Assembly (NCBI GenBank): GCA_031289585.1
Contig: JAITPF010000028.1
Location: forward strand, 1-53,442
DNA: 53,442 nucleotides
Direction: 5' to 3'
Source: Endomicrobium sp.
GTDB taxonomy: Bacteria > Elusimicrobiota > Endomicrobiia > Endomicrobiales > Endomicrobiaceae
Position numbers and translations under genes: made by a program. Shown piece after piece: positions 39,706 through 50,554 of the stretch. The first letter of the stretch is position 1. Each line of letters opens with the position of its first letter. The notes beneath the pieces were generated by a model. The model was not told the origin of the DNA. It searched no databases and saw nothing but the letters and a program-made list of their open reading frames with translations.

Positions 39706-40187
39706 CCTTATTTTTTTACTCCAAAGAACAATTATGTTCTATTACTTCTTTTCTTTCTTGCGCTTCTTGGCTTGCTGCCGCTCTTTTCAATTCCTTTATG
39801 CTCTTCTTGCCTCTATCCTGTGATAAATGTATATCTATTCCATATTAAACCCTGCCTTTTTATTTATATCCTTTCAAAAGGTATTCTTCCTTTTTCAAAC
39901 TTTATAAATCTTTTAGTTTCAGAGTCTACTATGTATTCGAGATTTTACAATTTCTTGCAATTTAAATCATAATTTTAGTATCATATATAAAATAAATCCT
40001 CATTTCAATGTTTGTAGTGCATGGTAAGATTAGTAGAAACGCTTGGAATTTTAGTTTCTGCTTTTGTGTTTATATAGAAGCAAACGAGTATTTGTTAGGA
40101 ATTTTTTTTTGTTCATGGTTTTCTTGGTGTAGTTATATTATTTCTCAAAAAAGTTAAAAAAATTTTAAATTGAAGTGAATAATATTT
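39706..40187. other. Gap before the glycan operon
   Basis: About 480 bases without a supported gene. The minus strand at 39850-39960 contains a short open stretch (EYIVDSETKRFIKFEK and more) that may be a remnant of the element with the recombinase. TAGTAGAAACGCTTGG at 40031-40046 is an exact inverted copy of recombinase sequence at 39399-39414. The promoter of the operon must lie near 40100-40180, but I see no clear boxes. Confidence 0.4.
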
Positions 40188-41493
40188 ATGAATGTGCATG
40201 TCATAGGACTTGGTTATGTAGGTCTTCCTGTTGCTGTCGCTTTTTCAGAGCTAGGAAATGTAGTTGTGGGGATTGATAAGGATGAAGAAAAAATAGATCT
40301 TTTTCAGAAATGTGAGCCAATAATAGTTGAGGCTAAACTTAAACATTTACTCATAAAAAATGTTACTACCAAAAGGTTGAGTTTCTCCACGTCATTAGAA
40401 AGCATAAGAAAAGCAGATATTATAATGATAGCAGTGGATACACCCGCTATCTCTCGGGGGGGGGGTAGATTTATCGTATATATATACAGTAGCACATGAT
40501 ATTGCAAATTATCTAGGTAGATACACAATTATTGTAATTAAGTCAACAGTTCTGCCCGGCACTTGCAAAAAAATAGAAAAATTAATAAAGCAACTTAATC
40601 CGAAAGCATCCTTTGATGTTGTATCAATTCCTGAGTTTTTACGAGAAGGGATGGCAATACATGATATTTTTGAACCTGATCGTATAGTTATTGGAGTAGA
40701 ATCACAAAGAGCAAAAAATTTGCTAGAAAAACTTTATAGTCCTTTCAAGAAAACCAAGATTTTCTTCACATCTCGTAGTTCAGCTGAAATGATAAAGTAT
40801 GCGTCAAATTCATTCCTTGCAATGAAAATTACTTTTATAAATGAAATTTCCAATTTATGTGAAAAAATCGGATGTAATGTATATGAAATAGCTTATGCTA
40901 TTGGTCTTGATACACGTATTGGAGAAAAATTCTTAAATCCCGGACCAGGATATGGTGGTAGCTGTTTTCCTAAAGACACTTTAGCTCTCGCAAATTTTGG
41001 GAAATCTGTTGGTTCACGTCTTACACTTGTAGAGTCCACAATTATGGCAAATGAATCTAGAAAAAAAGAGCTAGCTGCAAAAATTTTACATCTTGTTGAA
41101 GACTATAAAAATCCTAAAGCATCCTTTTTAGGACTATTTTTTAAAGCAGGAGTAGATGATTGCAGACAATCTCCATCAACTGACATAATAATGGAATTGC
41201 TAGATAAAAATATTGATGTTTGCGCATATGACCCTACAGCTATTGATAACTCCAGAAAAATTTTTGAGTCTCGGATAACGTATGCTCTAGATGCGTATAA
41301 TGCAGTAAAAGATGCTGATTTAATTGTGTTTGGTACAGAATGCGAAAATTTCAAGTTTTTAGATTGGGTTAAAATAGGAACGCTTGTTCGTAATAAAGTT
41401 ATATTCGACTTGAGAAATATCATAAATTCACAAGAAGCTATAAGAAATGGATTTAGATGTTATACAATTGGTAAACCCAAGGGGGAGGGTTAG
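40188..41493 (+). pseudogene. ugd: UDP-glucose 6-dehydrogenase, out of frame at a G10 tract (possibly phase-variable)
   Basis: The first frame (40188-40499) encodes the NAD-binding start MNVHVIGLGYVGLPVAVAFS and shifts at a run of ten G (40456-40465). With nine G the frame continues VDLSYIYTVAHDIANYLG and runs to 41493, giving 434 intact residues with PEFLREGMAIHDIFEPDRIV and the catalytic Cys in GPGYGGSCFPKDTLAL. The enzyme oxidises UDP-glucose to UDP-glucuronate for capsule or lipopolysaccharide. No other lesion is present, which fits a reversible phase-OFF state better than decay. It is first in a five-gene operon; the next start is 1 bp beyond its stop. Confidence 0.88.
40456..40465 (+). 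repeat. Poly-G tract (10 G) inside ugd
   Basis: Ten consecutive G between CTCTC and TAGATT. Nine (or twelve) would restore the frame; ten does not. Confidence 0.9.
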
Positions 41494-41494
41494 C

Positions 41495-42462
41495 ATGACA
41501 GATTTTCTAGTAAAAGCGGTAACTATTTGCTTGTTGATTGTGTTTGCTAGTTCAGCTCATTCTGTAACTAGGCATTCTGTAATAATTGAGGTAAATGCTG
41601 GTCTAGTTGACCAAATAGAATTTTTTTTAGCTGGTGAACAAATAGAAAAAATGGGGGGGGGGGGGTATATGCAGTTAAATATGATATTTCTTATTACAAC
41701 AGACATTTGTTGCTTAAGCACTTCCATCATTCAAGGACTTTTCAGCTCCTGAAAGCTTTTCCTTACTTGCATTTGGATATAGCTACTGATGAAGAAATAA
41801 GACAACAGAAGGAAAAGTTTATACTTCACTTGGACTCTGCAGATAGAGGTAAAGCTTGGAGTTTTATAGAACAGGTCAAACCCCACGGCGATGGTTATAT
41901 TCACACAGGTAGTATAGCAAATTATGAGGATTGTCCAGAAATTCGACAACATCTACTCAGGCATTTGAGTAAGGAAATGGCTTTGAGAAAATGCAGAGAA
42001 TATTTTCATTTCACAGATTCCATAATGGACAAAAAAAATATGGAAATACTTAAAAAAGTAAGAAAGGAAACCCAATCTTGTGGGGTACACGTAAGGCGTG
42101 GAGACAATGCGGAACATGGTGTTGCAAAGGCTACGGATTATTTTATTAAAGCCGTTAAAAAAGCTGGTGAGCTATGGGCAAACTGTTACTTTTTCTTCTT
42201 TTCTGATGAACCAGAATATGTTAGATATAACATTTTTCCAAAATTGGATTGGATAAAAAGGAAAGAAATTGTTGACATAAATGATGTTAATCACTGCTAC
42301 AGAGATTTGTTTTTGATGTCGGAATGTAAGCATCAGATAGCTAGTCAAGGAAGTATGGGTATAATTGCTTATTTTATAAACAAAAATCCCCAAAAAAAAC
42401 TTATTGCTCCTCGTTGTACTAGGGCATATAATAATATAAAACCTGATTTTACAATTGAGTAA
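41495..42462 (+). pseudogene. GT11-type (alpha-1,2-fucosyltransferase-like) protein, out of frame at a G13 tract
   Basis: From ATG 41495 (MTDFLVKAVTICLLIVFASS, a signal-like helix) the frame runs EVNAGLVDQIEFFLAGEQIE to a run of 13 G (41653-41665), then leaves frame. With 11 or 14 G it continues VYAVKYDISYYNRHL to 42462, about 321 residues, matching its paralogue at 47126 along its length. The GT11 signature VHVRRGDNAEHG (HxRRxD) and FFFSDEPEYV are present. GT11 enzymes add fucose to galactose in surface glycans. GGAGG at 41484-41488 sets the start. No other lesion. A hydrophobic N-terminus is unusual for GT11. Confidence 0.85.
41653..41665 (+). repeat. Poly-G tract (13 G) inside the first GT11 gene
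   Basis: Thirteen consecutive G after AAAAAT. The reading frame is restored at 8, 11 or 14 G. Confidence 0.9.
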
Positions 42463-42476
42463 ATTTGGTAAGATAA

Positions 42477-45400
42477 ATGAACAGCCCTAAAGTATCAGTA
42501 ATAATTCCTGTTTACAATACAGAAAAATACCTGCGTCAATGCCTTGACAGTGTTGCTAATCAAACTCTTAAAGATATTGAGATTATTTGCATAAATGATG
42601 GTTCTACAGATAATTCGCTTCAAATTTTAAATGAATATGCGAATAGAGATAGTAGATTTATAATTTTACAGCAGAAGAACGCTGGGTCAGCTATTGCAAG
42701 AAACAGTGCTTTAAGAATTGTACGAGGGAAGTATTTTGCATTTATGGATGCCGATGATTTTTATCCAACGAATGAAGTATTACAGAGTCTATATAATACG
42801 TCTGAGAATGAAGGTGCCCTTGTTTGTGGAGGTTCACTCTCTTTATGCAATGCTAAAGGCAAATCTATTAAAAATAATTTTCAAGAGAGTTGCTTTATAA
42901 AAAATCAATTAATGGATTTTAAAGATTATCAATATGACTATTACTATCAAAGATTTATTTATAATTCTAGTTTACTGAAAAACAATGATTTATATTTTCC
43001 CGATCTTATAAGATATCAAGATCCACCTTGGGTTATTAAATGTATGGCTCATGCGGAAAAGTTTTATGCAATTAAAAATATTACTTATTGTTATAGAGCT
43101 GGACATAAACCTTATACGTCTGAGCTAAATTTTATACAAGCAGTAGCGATTGCAAAAGGATTAAAATTGTCGCTTGAATTAACTAAAAAGTATAATTATG
43201 AAACTTTGCATTCTAAAATTGTGGAAAGAATAAATAATAACAGTTTTACGACCTTATTTAAAAATAAAGTTCGAGAAAATTCTAATATTGAGTATATTTT
43301 GAAAGATACATTGTCATCTTTAAAACAAGATACGAAATTCTTTTTCAATGACTTTTGGATAGCTTACACAAATTATCCCAAAGTATCAGTAATAATTCCA
43401 GTTTACAATACAGAAAAATATCTACGTCAATGCCTTGACAGTGTTGTTAATCAAACACTGAAAGATATTGAGATTATCTGCGTAAATGATGGTTCTACAG
43501 ATAAAAGTTTGACTATTCTTAGAGACTATGCAAGTAAAGATAGCAGAATTGTAGTAATAGATAGTATAAATGAAGGCGCCGGGGCGTCAAGGAATAAAGG
43601 GATAAGAATTAGTCACGGGAAATATGTGGGTTTTGTCGACAGCGATGATTGGCTTGATTTAAATTATTATGGAAATTTATATTCTGTCGCAGAAGAACAA
43701 AATGCTGACTTGGTTAGAACGTCATATTTTTATGAACGTTTTAATGTTCAAGAAAAAGAGAAATTTCTAAGTGGATTATTTGAAAGAAAAAAATTAAAAA
43801 AAGAGTCTCTATCTTTAAACGTAAATGAACATACAGTTGTTATATGGAATGCTATATATAAACAAAACTATATAATAAAAAACGATATTTATTTTAATAA
43901 CAGTCGCAGTCAAAACGATATTTTTTGGACAGCAAGAGCTACATATTTTTCTAAAAAAACTATAGGAACAGATAATACTTATTATCACTACAGATGCAAT
44001 CAAAACATTGATGGACAATTAAGTTTAACAACAAAATTTAATTTGATCCAAAGAGTAGATTCACTTATTCATTCCAATAAAATTACGTTAGATTTTATTA
44101 ACTCAGTTGAGTATAAATCCAAAGAAGACTACATAATAGCTTACAAAAGATGCTTGTGGAGGTATGACGATCAGTTCTGGAAATATCTTAAATTTGACGA
44201 ATTCACAAAAGATATGAAGAAAAGATTATTTGGCGAGTTCACCTCAGCATTTAATAGATTTAAATGCAAGAAAAGTTGTCAAAATGAATCTTATTATAAA
44301 TTTATAAAAAATAATGACTTTGAAGGTTATGTAAAATCTTTAAATCAAAAAAATAAAATTATTATTTCTTTAACAAGTTATCCGCCAAGAATCAATGTAG
44401 TTCATAAGGCTATTCTAACATTGCTAGAGCAAACAAAAAAAGCAGATAAAATTATATTATGGTTAGCAAATGAGGATTTCCCAAATAAAGAGAAAGATTT
44501 GCCAAGAGAGTTAACAGAGTTAACTACAAGAGGATTGACCATATCTTGGTGCAAAGATATAAAATCATACAAAAAGCTGATTCCTACAGTGAGAGAATAT
44601 CCTGAATATGCCATAGTAACTGCCGATGATGACGTATATTACCACAAAGATTGGCTTGAGAAACTATATATAGCATATATTAAACAACCTAACGCAGTTC
44701 ATTGCTATAGAGCGCGCATTATAACTTTCAAATACGGGAAGATATCCCCATATTTACAATGGAATTTTTACCTTGTAGGTAGCCATAAACCAAACCCATC
44801 TTTTCGTAATTTTCCAACAGGTTGTGGGGGAATATTGTATCCACCTCATGTATTCTACAAGGATCTTTTGAGAGAAGATTTATTCTTAAAATTATTACCC
44901 TCTACAGATGATATTTGGTTTTGGGCTATGTGTGTTTTAAACAATATAAAGATTAATAGTGTCAAGAAGAATACTGCATATGTTAAAAATGTAGAAAATA
45001 CTCAAAAGTCATCCCTTTGGAGTATAAATAAAAATAACATAAATGATGAGAACTTACAAAAAATATTTCATTTATATCCTAAGCTTTATAAAAAAATAAG
45101 AAAATACACTATTCCATACAGAGAATATGCTCAATGGGTCTTTTGTATATATAATGAAAATATTCATAAAGTCTTCAAAATATTTGGATTGAAGATTAAG
45201 CTGCGAAAAGAAAGACTTCTAAAATTTAGAAAGAATATTACAATGTTTTTAGAAAATATACTTTGTATAAAGAATAATGGGGTATACAAGATAATAGGAA
45301 TTTTTGGTATAAAGATAAAAATCAAAAGAAAACATAAAGAACTTCTGCTAAAACTTACAGAACAAGAGAAGAGTATTAAAAATTTAAAAGATGAGATCAA

Positions 45401-46115
45401 GAACATAGTTTTTTCTCAAACCCAAGACTTTAAAAAAGAATTGATAAATATTTGCAAAAACAATGAGCATTTAAATTACACTCAACTTGAAAGTTTATTT
45501 TGGCTCAGCAAAAGATTAAAAATTAAAAATAGTTTGCCTCCCATGAGAAACTGGGCAATGTCTCCAGATGTATTGCTAAAACTCCATGAATATATTACAA
45601 ATGCAAAACCTAAAATTATTTTAGAGTTTGGCAGCGGCGTTTCAACGATTGTTATATGTGATGCTTTAAGTCAAAACAACTCAGGGCATCTTATATCTAT
45701 AGAACATCTAGAAAAATTCATAAAAGAAACAGTGGAGGTTATTAAGAATGAAAATTTATCATCATTTCTTGATTTACGTTTAGCACAGCTTAAGATTTGG
45801 GTTGGTGAGCATTTATGCAACGAAAAACCTGTATTTTGGTATGATGAAAAAGTAATTGACACTTCAGACTTAAAAGATATTGATTTGTTGATTATTGACG
45901 GTCCTCCCGGAAATACAAATCCTTATGCAAGGTATCCTACTTTACAAATACTTTATAAAAAATTAAGTAATAAAGCACAAGTTTGGCTGGATGATTCCAA
46001 AAGGAAAGACGAAGATATTATAGTGCAGACATGGGTTGAAAAATACAAACTTATACCAAATTTCTTTAATCTTGAAAAAGGATTAGTTGTGTTAGAAAAA
46101 TTAAGGAGAGCCTAA
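42477..46115 (+). CDS. Four-domain fusion: two GT2 glycosyltransferases, a third GT-A-like transferase and a SAM methyltransferase
   Basis: The 1212-residue protein has, in order: GT2 domain 1 (about 4-300; VSVIIPVYNTEKYLRQCLDS, NDGSTDNS, MDADDF), GT2 domain 2 (about 301-600; the same opening, NDGSTDKS, VDSDDW), a different GT-A-like domain (about 625-880; IIISLTSYPPRIN, DXD-like TADDDVYYH, FPTGCGGILYPP), a basic linker with repeated KIFGLKIK and GIFGIKIK motifs (about 895-985), and a class I methyltransferase-like domain (about 1010-1212; ILEFGSGVSTIVI, LLIIDGPPGNTNPYARYP). It would assemble and cap a surface glycan at the cytoplasmic membrane. The start is 15 bp after the GT11 stop; the ribosome site is weak. 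Sugars and acceptor are unknown. Confidence 0.88.
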   Translation: MNSPKVSVIIPVYNTEKYLRQCLDSVANQTLKDIEIICINDGSTDNSLQILNEYANRDSRFIILQQKNAGSAIARNSALRIVRGKYFAFMDADDFYPTNEVLQSLYNTSENEGALVCGGSLSLCNAKGKSIKNNFQESCFIKNQLMDFKDYQYDYYYQRFIYNSSLLKNNDLYFPDLIRYQDPPWVIKCMAHAEKFYAIKNITYCYRAGHKPYTSELNFIQAVAIAKGLKLSLELTKKYNYETLHSKIVERINNNSFTTLFKNKVRENSNIEYILKDTLSSLKQDTKFFFNDFWIAYTNYPKVSVIIPVYNTEKYLRQCLDSVVNQTLKDIEIICVNDGSTDKSLTILRDYASKDSRIVVIDSINEGAGASRNKGIRISHGKYVGFVDSDDWLDLNYYGNLYSVAEEQNADLVRTSYFYERFNVQEKEKFLSGLFERKKLKKESLSLNVNEHTVVIWNAIYKQNYIIKNDIYFNNSRSQNDIFWTARATYFSKKTIGTDNTYYHYRCNQNIDGQLSLTTKFNLIQRVDSLIHSNKITLDFINSVEYKSKEDYIIAYKRCLWRYDDQFWKYLKFDEFTKDMKKRLFGEFTSAFNRFKCKKSCQNESYYKFIKNNDFEGYVKSLNQKNKIIISLTSYPPRINVVHKAILTLLEQTKKADKIILWLANEDFPNKEKDLPRELTELTTRGLTISWCKDIKSYKKLIPTVREYPEYAIVTADDDVYYHKDWLEKLYIAYIKQPNAVHCYRARIITFKYGKISPYLQWNFYLVGSHKPNPSFRNFPTGCGGILYPPHVFYKDLLREDLFLKLLPSTDDIWFWAMCVLNNIKINSVKKNTAYVKNVENTQKSSLWSINKNNINDENLQKIFHLYPKLYKKIRKYTIPYREYAQWVFCIYNENIHKVFKIFGLKIKLRKERLLKFRKNITMFLENILCIKNNGVYKIIGIFGIKIKIKRKHKELLLKLTEQEKSIKNLKDEIKNIVFSQTQDFKKELINICKNNEHLNYTQLESLFWLSKRLKIKNSLPPMRNWAMSPDVLLKLHEYITNAKPKIILEFGSGVSTIVICDALSQNNSGHLISIEHLEKFIKETVEVIKNENLSSFLDLRLAQLKIWVGEHLCNEKPVFWYDEKVIDTSDLKDIDLLIIDGPPGNTNPYARYPTLQILYKKLSNKAQVWLDDSKRKDEDIIVQTWVEKYKLIPNFFNLEKGLVVLEKLRRA
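42486..42614 (+). repeat. In-frame direct repeat, copy 1, start of GT2 domain 1
   Basis: About 130 bases are nearly identical to 43377-43505, with an offset of 891 bases (297 codons, exactly in frame). Shared stretches include AAAGTATCAGTAATAATTCC and CAATGCCTTGACAGTGTTG. Confidence 0.85.
43377..43505 (+). repeat. In-frame direct repeat, copy 2, start of GT2 domain 2
   Basis: Partner of 42486-42614. Recombination between the copies would delete GT2 domain 1 and leave an intact frame. Confidence 0.85.
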
Positions 46116-47099
46116 GTGAAAATAATATCTTGCCAATTTTCTGTTTGTGGTATATGTTTGGCTATTTTTTTAAGTCATTTTTGCTTTAATGGCATTAGTT
46201 TTGGGACGCAATGTGAGAACGATATGGGCTACACCTTTGTTATACCGTGCAGTAAAAAAGATTTAGACAAAATAGACATTGTCCTTAATAAGTTGTTTGA
46301 AAACTTTCAAATCAAGCAAATTGTTGTGATTTGCCCAAATGGGGGGGGGATTAATTTAGATAAAGTTATATCAGTAGATGAAGACAAATTGTATAATGGA
46401 CTAACTCTGCAAAGAATAAAAGACATTTGTCATACTAATAATATTTCCAGATCCCCTAACTGGTACTTCCAACAGTTTCTTAAGATGTCTTACGCCAATG
46501 TTTGTGTTGATGACTGCTATATCGTTTGGGACGCTGATTCTATTCCTTTAAAACATGTTGAATTTAGAAATTCCAAAACTGACAAATTGAAGTTTTTCAC
46601 AACAGGAGAACATTACATTCCTTACTTTAATACAATAGACATGCTATTTGAGGGTAATGTGTCAAAATGTATCAACAAATCGTTTATATCAGAGGCTATG
46701 ATAATTGACAAAAAGATAATGTTAGAACTGATACGGAAAATTGAAAATAATCATAAGATTTGCGGACATGCCTTCTATGAAAAAATTTTGAGCTGTGTTA
46801 GGCAAAAGACTCAAGCGTATTCGTTTTCAGAATATGAAACTTATGGGAATTTTGTGCTCACTTACTATCCAAAACGATATGAAGTTCTAGGAGCAAACAG
46901 GTATAGACGAGCTAATGGAATAGTAAATATACATGATGATGACGAGTTAAAATGGATTGCTCAATCTTTTGATGCAATATCAATTGAAAAATGGGACAAA
47001 ATCAAGTTTAAAAAGAAGATTGCTTATTTGCTTAGCAAGTTTAAATTCATTAGAAAACATTTTACATTTAAACAAATTTTGAAATTCACACGCAATTGA
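46116..47099 (+). CDS. DUF6492-like glycosyltransferase with N-terminal hydrophobic segment and in-frame G9 tract
   Basis: The 327-residue protein starts at GTG 46116, right after the previous stop, with AAGGAG at 46103-46108. A hydrophobic segment (CGICLAIFLSHFCFNGIS) precedes a GT-A-like body: YTFVIPCSKKDLDKIDIVLN, the metal-binding CYIVWDADSIPLK, and SEAMIIDKKIMLE. This resembles the DUF6492 group of predicted transferases; the assignment is by pattern memory and moderate. A run of nine G (46341-46349) encodes Gly-Gly-Gly in CPNGGGINLDK and is in frame, so the gene is ON. It is the fourth gene of the glycan operon. Confidence 0.75.
   Translation: MKIISCQFSVCGICLAIFLSHFCFNGISFGTQCENDMGYTFVIPCSKKDLDKIDIVLNKLFENFQIKQIVVICPNGGGINLDKVISVDEDKLYNGLTLQRIKDICHTNNISRSPNWYFQQFLKMSYANVCVDDCYIVWDADSIPLKHVEFRNSKTDKLKFFTTGEHYIPYFNTIDMLFEGNVSKCINKSFISEAMIIDKKIMLELIRKIENNHKICGHAFYEKILSCVRQKTQAYSFSEYETYGNFVLTYYPKRYEVLGANRYRRANGIVNIHDDDELKWIAQSFDAISIEKWDKIKFKKKIAYLLSKFKFIRKHFTFKQILKFTRN
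46341..46349 (+). repeat. Poly-G tract (9 G) inside the DUF6492-like gene, in frame
   Basis: Nine consecutive G followed by ATTAAT. Gain or loss of one G would bring an early stop. Confidence 0.9.
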
Positions 47100-47125
47100 A
47101 AATTTTTGAAAAGGAAAATAACCAA

Positions 47126-48088
47126 ATGAAAAGATGCTTAACATTGTTAGCACTATGTCTGTGTTTTGGTTGTGACAAACAACCATATATAATTACAAAT
47201 ATGAGAGGCGGTTTGATTGATCAAATGGACTACTTTCTAATCGGAGAACAGTTAAAAAAGAAAGGCATTGATGTAAAATTTGACATTTCTTATTATAATG
47301 TGCCTGGAGGGAGGTTTTCATCTTCTATCAAAAAATCTTATAATAGACGAAGTTTTCAGCTTTTAAAAGCTTTTCCATATCTCAAAACAAAATTACACAT
47401 AGCAAGTGATGGTGATGTGAAATTACTTAAGTCAAAAAATGTTATACGTAAAAGTAAAGAAGATGGAAGCAACTCCTGGAGTTTCTTTAAAGAAGTTGTT
47501 GATACCCCTGTTTATATTGACATGTGGAATCTTGGAAATTGGAGTTTATGCCAAGACATTGTCTATCCAAAAAATCCAAAAGCATCCGCTAAAAATTCAA
47601 CAAATTTGTATAAAGAATATTTTCATTTCAAAGATATTTCTATTATGGATGAAGAAAATATGGCAGTACTTAACAAAATAAAACTGGAAAACAATTCTGT
47701 AGGCGTGCATGTAAGACGTGGAGATTTTGTAGAATTAGGAGATGTTTTGCCTGAGGAATATTTTCTATTAGCAGCTAAAAAAGCCAAAGAACTATGGCCG
47801 GATTGTTGCCTTTTCTTTTTTTCTGATGAACCTGAATATGTGAAGGAGTATATTTTCCCAGAGCTAGATTCTAACATAAGGAAAGAAATCGTCGATATCA
47901 ATGACGCTGATCATTGTTATAGAGATTTATTCTTGATGTCTGAGTGTAAATATCAAATAGCCGGATTAGGAAGTATGATATATGTTGCTTTTTTTATAAA
48001 CAATAATCCTGAAAAGAAACTCATAGCGCCACGATCAGGCAGAAATGCTGCTTATAGGAAAGGGGTGGCAGACATCATTATGCTCTAG
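47126..48088 (+). CDS. GT11-type (alpha-1,2-fucosyltransferase-like) protein, intact paralogue
   Basis: From ATG 47126 (MKRCLTLLALCLCFGCDKQP) the protein has 320 residues. AAGGAA at 47110-47115 favours this start over TTG 47096. It matches the GT11 gene at 41495 throughout: RGGLIDQMDYFLIGEQLKKK, RRSFQLLKAFPYL, KEYFHFKDISIMD, VGVHVRRGDFVELG (HxRRxD), FFFSDEPEYVKEYIFPE and DADHCYRDLFLMSECKYQI. It lacks the poly-G tract, having KKKGIDVKFD at that place. The N-terminus looks like a signal peptide, possibly of a lipoprotein (FGC), odd for an enzyme using a cytoplasmic nucleotide sugar. It is last in the operon. Confidence 0.83.
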   Translation: MKRCLTLLALCLCFGCDKQPYIITNMRGGLIDQMDYFLIGEQLKKKGIDVKFDISYYNVPGGRFSSSIKKSYNRRSFQLLKAFPYLKTKLHIASDGDVKLLKSKNVIRKSKEDGSNSWSFFKEVVDTPVYIDMWNLGNWSLCQDIVYPKNPKASAKNSTNLYKEYFHFKDISIMDEENMAVLNKIKLENNSVGVHVRRGDFVELGDVLPEEYFLLAAKKAKELWPDCCLFFFSDEPEYVKEYIFPELDSNIRKEIVDINDADHCYRDLFLMSECKYQIAGLGSMIYVAFFINNNPEKKLIAPRSGRNAAYRKGVADIIML

Positions 48089-48433
48089 CGCCACATATGT
48101 GTAAAGAGCAAACAGTTGATAACTTCGGAATAGATTCTGCAACTGCAGCCCACACATAATGTGACGGACGCTAATTAAGCTTTTGAATGACAGCTAGAAG
48201 ACAACTTGTTGCCCTGTGCGTAGTTGCTAATAGATTTTGTGATACGCGGTACAACCTGATACGAGTTAGTCTTTCTTTGCAAAAGGTTTAGTTTTAATAT
48301 ATACAGCAGCTATCGTCGTATTGTTGTCTTAGAACTATAAAAAATGATTAAAGAAATATTGTATATTAGGACACTGGCGACTTAGTCAATAAATAATTTT
48401 AAATTAAAAGGTTATTTATTGGAGTTATTTTAC
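48089..48433. other. Gap between the glycan operon and leuA remnant
   Basis: About 345 bases without a recognised gene. A 33-codon open stretch from about 48188 has no similarity I know. No terminator, repeat or leader regulation typical of leu genes (T-box, Leu-rich leader) is visible. Confidence 0.45.
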
Positions 48434-49826
48434 ATGAAAAAAGATAAAGTAATATTTTTTTGATACGACATTGAGTGACGGCGAGCAGTCGCCAGGCGCA
48501 AGTTTAAATTTAAAAGAGAAACTTCTTATTGCAAATCAACTTGCGGCTTTAGGCGTAGACGTTATAGAAGAAGGTTTTCTGTCGTCAAGTCTAGGAGATT
48601 TTGAAGCCGTAAAAAGCAATAAGCAATATCGCAACAGATTAAGACATCATCTATTGCGGGTTTATGCCGTTCAACGGGAAAAGATATAAAAATATGTTGG
48701 GACGCAGTAAAATACGCAAAAAGTTTGTGTAAAGACGTTGAATTTTCAGCTGAAGACGCAGGAAGGTCTGACTATAGACTATTTGTGAAAGTTGTAGAAG
48801 CTATTATAGATGCAGGAGCTTCTACAGTTAATATTCCTGACACCGTAGGATATACAACTTCTGTAGAGTTTGGAGCTAAAATATCCGAAATCAAAAAAAG
48901 AGTCCCTAATATTAACAAAGCAATAATAAGCGTACACTGTCATAATGATTTAGGTCTTGCTGTGGCAAATTCTTTGTCTGCCATAGAAAACGGAGCAAGG
49001 CAAGTTGAATGCACAATTAATGGAATAGGCGAAAGAGCATGAAATGCTTCACTCGAAGAACTTGCAATGGCGTTAAAAGTAAGACCGCATTATTATAACG
49101 TTACAAAAGAACTATATAACGCAAGCAAGTTAGTGTCCCGTTTAACGGGAATAGCAGTACAAGTAAATAAGGCTATAGTCGGGCAAATGCATTTGCCCAC
49201 GAGTCAGGTATACAACCCCAAGACGGAATGCTTAAAGCAAGAGAAACTTACGAGATTATGCGCTCTGTGGATGTCGGCGTACCTGAAAGTTCATTGGTTT
49301 TAGGAAAACACTCAGGCAGACACGCATTCTTCAAGAAAGTAAAAGATTTAGGATATAAACTTGACGCTAAAGCATCTGAAAAGTTATTTGAGAAGTTTAA
49401 GGTTTTGTCCGACAAGAAAAAGTTGATTTTTGACGATGATATAGTTGCTTTAGTTGAAGAAGATACGACACAAGGAAGCGAAGTATTTACTCTTGATTAC
49501 TTAAACGTAACTTCAGGGGCAGGCATACCTACAGCAACTGTCAAAATATCAAAGAAGCAAGGCGATAAAAATGCTCAACTGGAAATATTTCAAGAAGCAG
49601 CTTGTGGAAGTGGTCCTATAGATGTCGTTTATAAGGTTGTCGACAAAATAGTAAAAATGGATATTAACCTGGCGGAATTTTCACTTAGGGCAGTTTCTTC
49701 TGGCGAAGACGCATTGGGAGAAGTTTTCTTAAAGGTTAAATACAACGGAAGTGTTTATTCGGGTAAAAGAACTTCTACAGATATAATTGAAGCCTGAGCA
49801 AAAGGCTTATATGCAAGCCATAAATA
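48434..49826 (+). pseudogene. leuA: 2-isopropylmalate synthase (LeuA), multiply broken
   Basis: Translation across frames gives [21 protein letters not shown]-type LeuA/CimA starts ([15 protein letters not shown]), [48 protein letters not shown]-like [35 protein letters not shown] and [13 protein letters not shown]. Lesions: one extra T in a T7 run near 48463, frame changes near 48620 and 49190, an internal deletion before KSLCKDVEF (about 48720), and TGA replacing Gly in GERAGN at 49039-49041. It would condense acetyl-CoA with 2-oxoisovalerate in leucine synthesis. leuC follows, also dead, so leucine synthesis by this route is lost unless other copies exist. Confidence 0.9.
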
Positions 49827-49838
49827 AGGCATACAGAC

Positions 49839-49847
49839 GGGGGGGGG
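49839..49847 (+). repeat. Poly-G tract (9 G) between leuA and leuC remnants
   Basis: Nine consecutive G, three bases before the leuC ATG, where a ribosome-binding site would be expected. It lies in a dead region, so selection for phase variation is unlikely here. Confidence 0.9.
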
Positions 49848-49850
49848 TAG

Positions 49851-50554
49851 ATGGGGAAGTACAATTCCAGAAAAATTATTAGCCGCTCACAGCGGGAAAA
49901 AAGCAGTAGAGCCAAGTGAATTTATAGAGTCAAAAGTTGATATTACACTTACTAACGACGTTACGGCTCCTCTTGCAATAAAAAAATTTAGAAAATCAGG
50001 AGCAAAAAAGGTTTTTGATAAAAATAAAATAGCTTTGGTTAGGGACTATTTTATACCCAAAAATATTTGCGAACTTACGAAATAAATTGCGACAAGATTT
50101 TACCTCAAGTTGCACTACCTTTTTTACCATCTAATGCAAAAGTAGTTAAAGATATTAAGAAAACCTATATAGACCAAGTTGTAATAGGTTCTTGCACCAA
50201 TGGTAGAATTGAAGATTTAAAAATTGCGGCTTCAATTGTAAAAAAAGGGAAAAAAGTAAACCCTAATGTAAGAACTATAGTAATTCCTGCAACACCTGCA
50301 ATTTATTCTCAAGTGTTGAAAGAAGGATTGCTAAAATATTTATGGATGCAGGTGCAGTTGTTTCAGCTTCTACATGTGGACCATGTTTGGGTGGACATAT
50401 GGGACCACTTGCTTCGGGCGAAAAGTGTGTTTCAATAACAAATAGAAACTTCATCGGTAGAATGGGGCATGTAGAATCTCAAGTATTTTTGGCAAATCCT
50501 GCAGTAGCTTCAGCTATAAAAGGTTATATAGCAACGCCTGACGAGATAAAATAA
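49851..50554 (+). pseudogene. leuC: 3-isopropylmalate dehydratase large subunit (LeuC), internally deleted and frameshifted
   Basis: ATG 49851 is followed, after one extra G, by GSTIPEKLLAAHSGKKAVEP and DVTAPLAIKKF, the LeuC N-terminus, up to about IPKNIC. The middle (roughly 190 residues) is missing. Homology resumes at [35 protein letters not shown] (first cluster Cys), then, after another frame change near 50335, [18 protein letters not shown] (the other two Cys) and [19 protein letters not shown]. It would bind a 4Fe-4S cluster and isomerise isopropylmalate with LeuD. Total length is half of normal. Dead. Confidence 0.9.

Follow-up and report, generated by a model that had tools for sequence, protein, structure and literature searches.

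We analysed a 53,442-nucleotide stretch of Endomicrobium sp. DNA (contig JAITPF010000028.1 of assembly GCA_031289585.1, hereafter the window), in which positions 40188 to 48088 hold a putative surface-polysaccharide operon with long runs of G (poly-G tracts) inside three of its five genes. The window is contig C16 of an assembly totalling 1,277,048 bases in 49 contigs (86.1% complete), and its GC content is 32%. Its seryl-tRNA synthetase shares 85% identity with that of Candidatus Endomicrobiellum dinenymphae DS12 (over residues 150-424) and 77% with that of Endomicrobium sp. Kf353_bin3 (over residues 1-419). As judged from these comparisons, the source genome is that of a small Endomicrobium/Endomicrobiellum relative, kin to the endosymbionts of termite-gut flagellates. 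Endomicrobiellum is a genus of flagellate endosymbionts with a mean genome size of 1.13 Mb and a GC content of 32.3%, for which genome erosion has been described (PMC11257099). A first-pass annotation, made from the letters of the window alone, had remarked that the genome looks like that of a reduced symbiont; small size, a GC content of 32% and kinship with flagellate endosymbionts agree with this, and an intracellular life is suggested by the kinship.

G and C runs of at least 7 were counted across the window, and protein families were assigned with Pfam and NCBIfam. The resulting features, including open reading frames (ORF) and lengths in amino acids (aa), are as follows.

40188-40496, + strand: N-terminal part of ugd with the NAD-binding domain, in the frame ahead of tract 1 (ORF; PF03721, E 4.2e-26)
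40456-40465, + strand: 10-G tract (tract 1) in ugd, off frame; same site and same length in the relative G023
40432-41493, + strand: central and UDP-binding domains of ugd, in the post-tract frame (PF00984, PF03720; TIGR03026 over cut-off)
41447-41752, + strand: N-terminal part of the first GT11 gene, up to and through tract 2, with a likely start at ~41495 (ORF; by-eye resemblance to GT11 paralogues)
41653-41665, + strand: 13-G tract (tract 2) in the first GT11 gene, off frame
41638-42462, + strand: post-tract part of the first GT11 gene (PF01531, E 1.9e-11)
42477-46115, + strand: GT2-GT2-(GT-like)-methyltransferase multidomain protein of 1212 aa, no tract (Glycos_transf_2 twice, Methyltransf_24)
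46116-47099, + strand: DUF6492 protein (PF20102, E 1.4e-7)
46341-46349, + strand: 9-G tract in the DUF6492 gene, in frame
47096-48088, + strand: second GT11 gene, no tract, open throughout (Glyco_transf_11)
48398-49797, + strand: remnant of leuA with the frame broken by several lesions; the G023 copy is open as far as the contig end, and leuA serves as an internal control for decay
49839-49847, + strand: 9-G tract immediately 5' of what is left of leuC, excluded from the glycan switches

The five genes, ugd, GT11, the 1212-aa protein, the DUF6492 protein and GT11, are closely spaced and all on the + strand, and they combine a sugar-nucleotide enzyme with several glycosyltransferases in one operon, as surface-polysaccharide loci do. 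Both ugd (whole span 40188-41493, + strand) and the first GT11 gene (~41495 to 42462) are off frame at their tracts, with long open frames on either side, and the DUF6492 gene is open through its 9-G tract. G runs of at least 7 are found only at 40456 (10), 41653 (13), 46341 (9) and 49839 (9), and there are no C runs of that length in the window. Five tightly packed genes forming one operon is also how the first-pass annotation had described the locus, and ORFs and Pfam matches bear out its gene order and families, just as the run counts agree with its three tracts of 10, 13 and 9 G in ugd, GT11 and DUF6492 (two off frame, one in frame) and with the lack of any other run of at least 9 G save that at 49839. 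Its label for the long gene, GT2-GT2-GT-methyltransferase, stands for the two Glycos_transf_2 domains and Methyltransf_24, but the third GT module matched neither Pfam nor NCBIfam, and the "up to eight combinations" that it envisaged are an arithmetic upper bound only.

A search with C-terminal Ugd found one locus in the source genome, and a search with GT11 found three. The post-tract part of the first GT11 gene is 50% identical over 258 aa to the copy at 47096, and an 8-G run is also present in the third GT11 (contig C37), within an open frame of 339 aa. In named genomes, seven stretches fit the GT11 search pattern and none encodes a relative. A Pfam scan found no export or polymerisation genes among the proteins of the operon, the rest of the genome lying outside this search. 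Relatives of the 1212-aa protein adjoin ugd in G023 and G016. Gene content varies between species at a fixed site, ugd and the GT2-methyltransferase gene lying beside leuA in both the window and G023 while the other genes differ. Just 5' of ugd (window 40042-40167) there is a short GT2 remnant where G023 has a whole GT2 gene, from which we conclude that the window locus has lost a glycosyltransferase by ordinary decay. On the other side of the operon, leuA and leuC (window 48398-50438) are broken by ordinary lesions.

Of the 41 genomes of the genus that we compared, including the source genome, G023 has the same locus on its contig C28, in the order dus end (a name read from the sequence), GT2, ugd, GT2, GT2-GT2-methyltransferase and leuA. 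Its ugd carries 10 G at the same site as in the window and is likewise off frame. The two ugd genes align over 1294 bases with 91.3% identity and have only two other indels, each of 3 bases, neither of which breaks the frame. For the same pair of genomes, the leuA alignment (956 bases, 90.1% identity) contains 10 indels, seven of which are not multiples of three (two before the start codon, and five of the eight in the coding part), and all four indels in the GT2 remnant before ugd (179 bases) are frame-breaking. After the tract, the ratio of non-synonymous to synonymous change (dN/dS) in ugd is 0.31 (340 codons) versus 0.30 in the intact neighbouring methyltransferase module, and codon positions 1+2 differ from position 3 (p 0.0008). 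The indel pattern and the post-tract dN/dS together argue that the frame has been preserved through most of ugd, though both assembled alleles are off frame. Among the genes of the operon, it is for ugd alone that these alignments show a frame kept by selection despite an off-frame allele. The first-pass annotation had looked to intact frames in relatives as support for switching, and the G023 ugd, with the same tract and no other frame lesion, lends such support for ugd. The run is absent from the open ugd genes of G046, G019 and G016, which are more distant.

The comparison with G023 bears directly on a neutral explanation, in which the genus lengthens G runs and ugd and GT11 were recently hit in the course of genome erosion, making them young pseudogenes. 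Consistent with this are the many tracts outside reading frames, the broken leuA and leuC next to the operon, the description of the genus as eroding (PMC11257099) and the fact that the clustering of three tracts is by itself not significant. However, the ugd tract is common to G023, and the rest of the gene is in frame at 91% DNA identity, unlike leuA; separate recent breaks in the two species could produce this pattern, yet they would require that a long tract had been retained in an expressed gene. We consider recent loss an improbable explanation for the operon as a whole. For ugd, the indel test weakens it; for GT11 and DUF6492 it may still hold.

Tracts that differ in length and frame at one site are found elsewhere in the genus. 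In G004, two paralogues that are 61% identical have a run at the same N-terminal site, one of 9 G and open, the other of 11 G and off frame, and a relative in G046 (67%) has no run at that site. Copies of this family with G runs are located at L287 7893, L331 729, L353 and L274 8028. A subtilase-like name for the G004/G019 family was discarded; it had been given for an HGT-like motif seen by eye, and there was no Pfam match for L274 and L287 and no NCBIfam match for L331. G004 also has a polysaccharide cluster on its contig C6 (L285 461-16480) with three tracts of 13, 8 and 16 G, which are borne by radical-SAM, FkbH (8 G near the start) and GDSL-like genes. Besides FkbH, genes for a carbamoyltransferase and for two each of DegT aminotransferases, hexapeptide transferases and glycosyltransferases adjoin the radical-SAM and GDSL-like genes. 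Sensor-like Cache/PAS genes, relatives of which are present in 17 of the 41 genomes, carry tracts at three different sites in two G043 paralogues and a G019 relative (L335 620, L337 5027 and L278 6432).

Such differences are informative about another possibility, namely that each tract is fixed and that slippage of RNA polymerase or the ribosome yields full-length Ugd and GT11 as a constant share of the product, with no switching from cell to cell. We take this seriously because the ugd tract is 10 G long in either allele; the gene is off frame in the two species despite the conservation of its frame, and transcriptional slippage at poly(A) in the endosymbiont Buchnera is a precedent (PMC2831843). 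On the other hand, the G004 paralogues have tracts of unequal length and opposite frame state at one site, lengths range from 8 to 16 in G056, in-frame and off-frame cases both occur across the sample, and the precedent is a poly(A) one, while A/T runs in G056 are without excess tail. Overall, a standing frameshift of this kind seems to us quite unlikely.

To what extent long G runs interrupt frames was surveyed for 207 distinct runs of at least 8, with at least 300 bases on either side, in stretches of DNA, mostly picked for the tracts in them, from 16 of the 41 genomes; excluded were runs nearer to the ends, duplicates and two GC-rich contig starts of the source genome. On the G-sense strand, 17 runs bridge a pair of open frames, each of 60 codons or more; 15 fall in frame, 23 immediately precede a start codon and 44 touch a single frame, the corresponding figures on the opposite strand being 1, 5, 3 and 57, with 141 in none. 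For A/T runs of at least 8 in the same stretches (n=1252), bridging and in-frame cases stand at 30:425 (A sense) and 21:101 (other strand), and for G/C runs of exactly 5 (n=500) at 18:180 (G sense) and 9:47 (other strand). Long G runs well inside frames are off frame in 17/32 cases, versus 30/455 for A runs of at least 8 and 18/198 for G runs of 5 (Fisher test, 17:15 versus 30:425, p 6e-11, and versus 18:180, p 3e-8). The result is similar without the tracts of the window and G023 (14:14 versus 30:425, p 5e-9). Within genes, long G runs are thus much more prone to be off frame than runs of other kinds.

Twelve of the 17 bridging tracts are in genes with a family match or a close relative: ugd (two), GT11, Methyltransf_24, MBOAT, B12-binding/radical SAM (two), GDSL-like (a match just under the cut-off), Cache/PAS (two, both sensor-like matches being weak), glutamate synthase and NAD synthase (with the tract near the end of the frame). 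The five without a match are L195, L212, L274, L231 and L349, of which L212 and L349 were scanned on one side only. We interpret eight of the 12 (ugd twice, GT11, Methyltransf_24, MBOAT, radical SAM twice and GDSL-like) as genes of the envelope or of polysaccharides; in G004, the GDSL gene and one radical SAM gene are so assigned because of their neighbours. Among the 15 in-frame tracts are those in genes for DUF6492, GT11, a sulfatase-family protein, an autotransporter and, in G043 between rfbF and rfbH, a CDP-glucose 4,6-dehydratase. Runs just before start codons number 23/207 on the sense strand versus 3/207 on the other (25/500 versus 5/500 for G runs of 5). Examples are L234 10253, L250 18919, L266 2727, L276 7277 and L233 8115, and the genes behind such runs encode a type III glutamine synthetase, MetK, CarA, a MoxR-like protein and a saccharopine dehydrogenase-like protein. 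These runs may have grown from Shine-Dalgarno sequences and could tune translation.

Tracts are rare in the window, as the first-pass annotation had stated, but this does not extend to the source genome, which has 25 G runs of at least 8, or to the genus, in which G runs of at least 9 are present in 34 of the 41 genomes (up to 34 runs in one genome). Over 1.1 Mb of the G056 chromosome, the counts of G and C runs have dropped to 4 and 6 by length 7 and stay level from there to length 16, while A/T runs fall steadily to length 11, apart from a single A run of 14, and have no tail like that of G/C. This flat tail indicates that long G runs are a separate class rather than the end of a composition curve. 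If 20-25 tracts are placed at random, the probability of finding at least three in 5.9 kb is 0.06-0.12, and that of finding at least four in 9.4 kb is 0.006-0.017. The clustering of the operon tracts is therefore only moderately unusual, and the notion that three tracts in one operon are striking in themselves was dropped. Since mutS (TIGR01070) is full length in the source genome and over cut-off in 27/41 genomes, its loss does not explain the tracts, and loss of mismatch repair was set aside as their cause (mutL was outside the search). In G049 (30 runs of at least 9) the mutS match is partial, and in G018 (22 runs of at least 9 G) mutS is found only as short fragments (contig C32:64590-64948).

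Could the tracts be produced by homopolymer assembly errors or poly-G read artefacts, the genes being in frame in the cell? The assembly is a draft in 49 contigs, and there are GC-rich runs of up to 18 C at the start of one contig (C3). However, the operon tracts are flanked on both sides by coherent coding sequence, long runs are seen in 34/41 assemblies and at homologous sites, and a wrong length would not abolish the runs, which together make an artefact very improbable. GC-rich low-complexity runs near contig starts, at G000 C3:21-104 and C1:668-719 (one of them of 18 C), are possibly assembly artefacts.

On balance, phase variation of a surface-polysaccharide operon by poly-G slippage is in our opinion the best explanation, to which we assign a probability of roughly two in three. 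Slipped-strand mispairing at the long G runs would shift the frames of ugd, one GT11 gene and the DUF6492 gene, and single cells would differ in the glycan steps they carry out. Ugd converts UDP-glucose to UDP-glucuronate. Its state would gate, at the sugar-nucleotide level, any glucuronate-containing glycan, and the GT11 and DUF6492 states would alter decoration. Tract length is expected to vary between cells, the glycan to be displayed on the cell surface, and the variation to be under selection. The tracts, their frame states, the G023 tract, the frame conservation around it and the opposite-state paralogues are direct observations. The phase-variable glycan operon proposed in the first-pass annotation is thus strengthened by the ugd tract common to G023 without other lesion, by the opposite-state paralogues and by a second multi-tract cluster, but it is weakened by the fact that tracts are genus-wide and often outside genes.

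Several findings weigh against switching. In the survey, 108/207 runs fall outside every 60-codon frame of the G-sense strand and 32/207 are well inside a frame, unlike in Campylobacter, where 77% of poly-G tracts are in ORFs (PMC6321876). Similarly, 63/115 tracts of at least 8 are outside open frames of at least 100 aa in the stretches fetched from four genomes, although 69-80% of bases in these stretches sit inside such frames. One bridging tract splits glutamate synthase, and 9/15 in-frame tracts are in housekeeping genes (MurB, YidC, RadA-like, ATP synthase alpha/beta subunit, OMP decarboxylase, GATase_2, TsaD, amino-acid permease and chorismate synthase), with the remaining one having no match. 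The tract measures exactly 10 G in both ugd alleles, although free switching might have left them different, and the part of ugd before the tract shows no purifying signal (dN/dS 0.88 over 88 codons, codon positions p 1.0). A third G004 paralogue, in which the run is interrupted, has further lesions, the G016 relative of the long GT2-methyltransferase gene is frameshifted without a tract, and the DUF6492 gene is without a comparison partner, its family being matched in none of the other 40 genomes of the genus. The many tracts outside frames imply that tract growth is also a general mutational habit and that tracts also arise without function; a tract by itself is weak evidence of a switch.

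FutC of Helicobacter pylori belongs to GT11 and is itself phase-variable, and the operon has, in the manner of futC, a GT11 transferase gene (PF01531) with a frame-setting tract. FutC is an alpha-1,2-fucosyltransferase (PMC2583950), and family membership suggests fucosyl transfer by the GT11 proteins of the window. Fucosylation by these enzymes was not adopted as an interpretation, since no GDP-mannose 4,6-dehydratase gene, gmd (TIGR01472), is over cut-off in any of the 41 genomes versus 6/14 control genomes, with salvage routes outside the search and the source genome 86.1% complete.

Poly-G phase variation of surface glycans is already known, and what is unusual here is the symbiont setting. 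As in the Campylobacter phasome (PMC6321876), there are tens of long G runs per genome, mostly with G on the coding strand, and their length sets frames, but here they are found in a termite-gut lineage of another phylum, for which switching is a proposal. Like Helicobacter pylori futA/futB (PMC2583950), the first GT11 gene would, under our interpretation, encode a homopolymer-switched transferase of surface polysaccharide; unlike futA/futB, which have C tracts, the present operon has G tracts and is headed by a putatively switched sugar-nucleotide dehydrogenase, in a genus without gmd over cut-off. In Candidatus Mycoplasma girerdii, an associate of Trichomonas vaginalis, repeat-length variants have been seen in metagenomic reads, including a G(8) controlling a methyltransferase (PMC5476646). 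This is likewise a small-genome bacterium with a parabasalid protist, but there the repeats are mostly dinucleotides in BspA-like and restriction-modification genes and the host is human, whereas here they are G runs in glycan genes. Buchnera shares homopolymers with frameshifts in an intracellular symbiont (PMC2831843), but these are poly(A) in an AT-rich genome, while the excess tail here is in G/C runs only.

In the open-licence PMC literature we found no report of phase variation in Endomicrobium and none in termite symbionts among the titles listed, one of which concerns the parabasalid-associated mycoplasma (PMC5476646). In the main text of PMC11257099, "phase", "homopolymer" and "pseudogen" are all absent. 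Poly-G contingency genes in the cited literature are those of mucosal bacteria of vertebrates. If the switches work in eroding, protist-associated symbionts, phase variation would not depend on vertebrate immunity, and a symbiont that is clonal and bottlenecked would have retained a generator of diversity. Some "pseudogenes" here might then be switched-off genes, which would touch statements on genome erosion.

A broader and more tentative idea, which we hold to be possible but would not bet on, is that Endomicrobium/Endomicrobiellum runs a genus-wide poly-G phasome of glycans, secreted proteins and sensor-like proteins, in association with termite-gut protists and where there is no adaptive immunity, and that it stems from a lineage-wide expansion of G runs despite a full-length mutS in the majority of the genomes. 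The selecting agent would be protist recognition, phage or competition. In L242 at 1620 (G000 contig C40:18620), an 8-G run stands by a TG repeat in the signal-peptide-like region of a 227-aa protein, which has no Pfam match and, from its sequence by eye, may be an outer-membrane protein.

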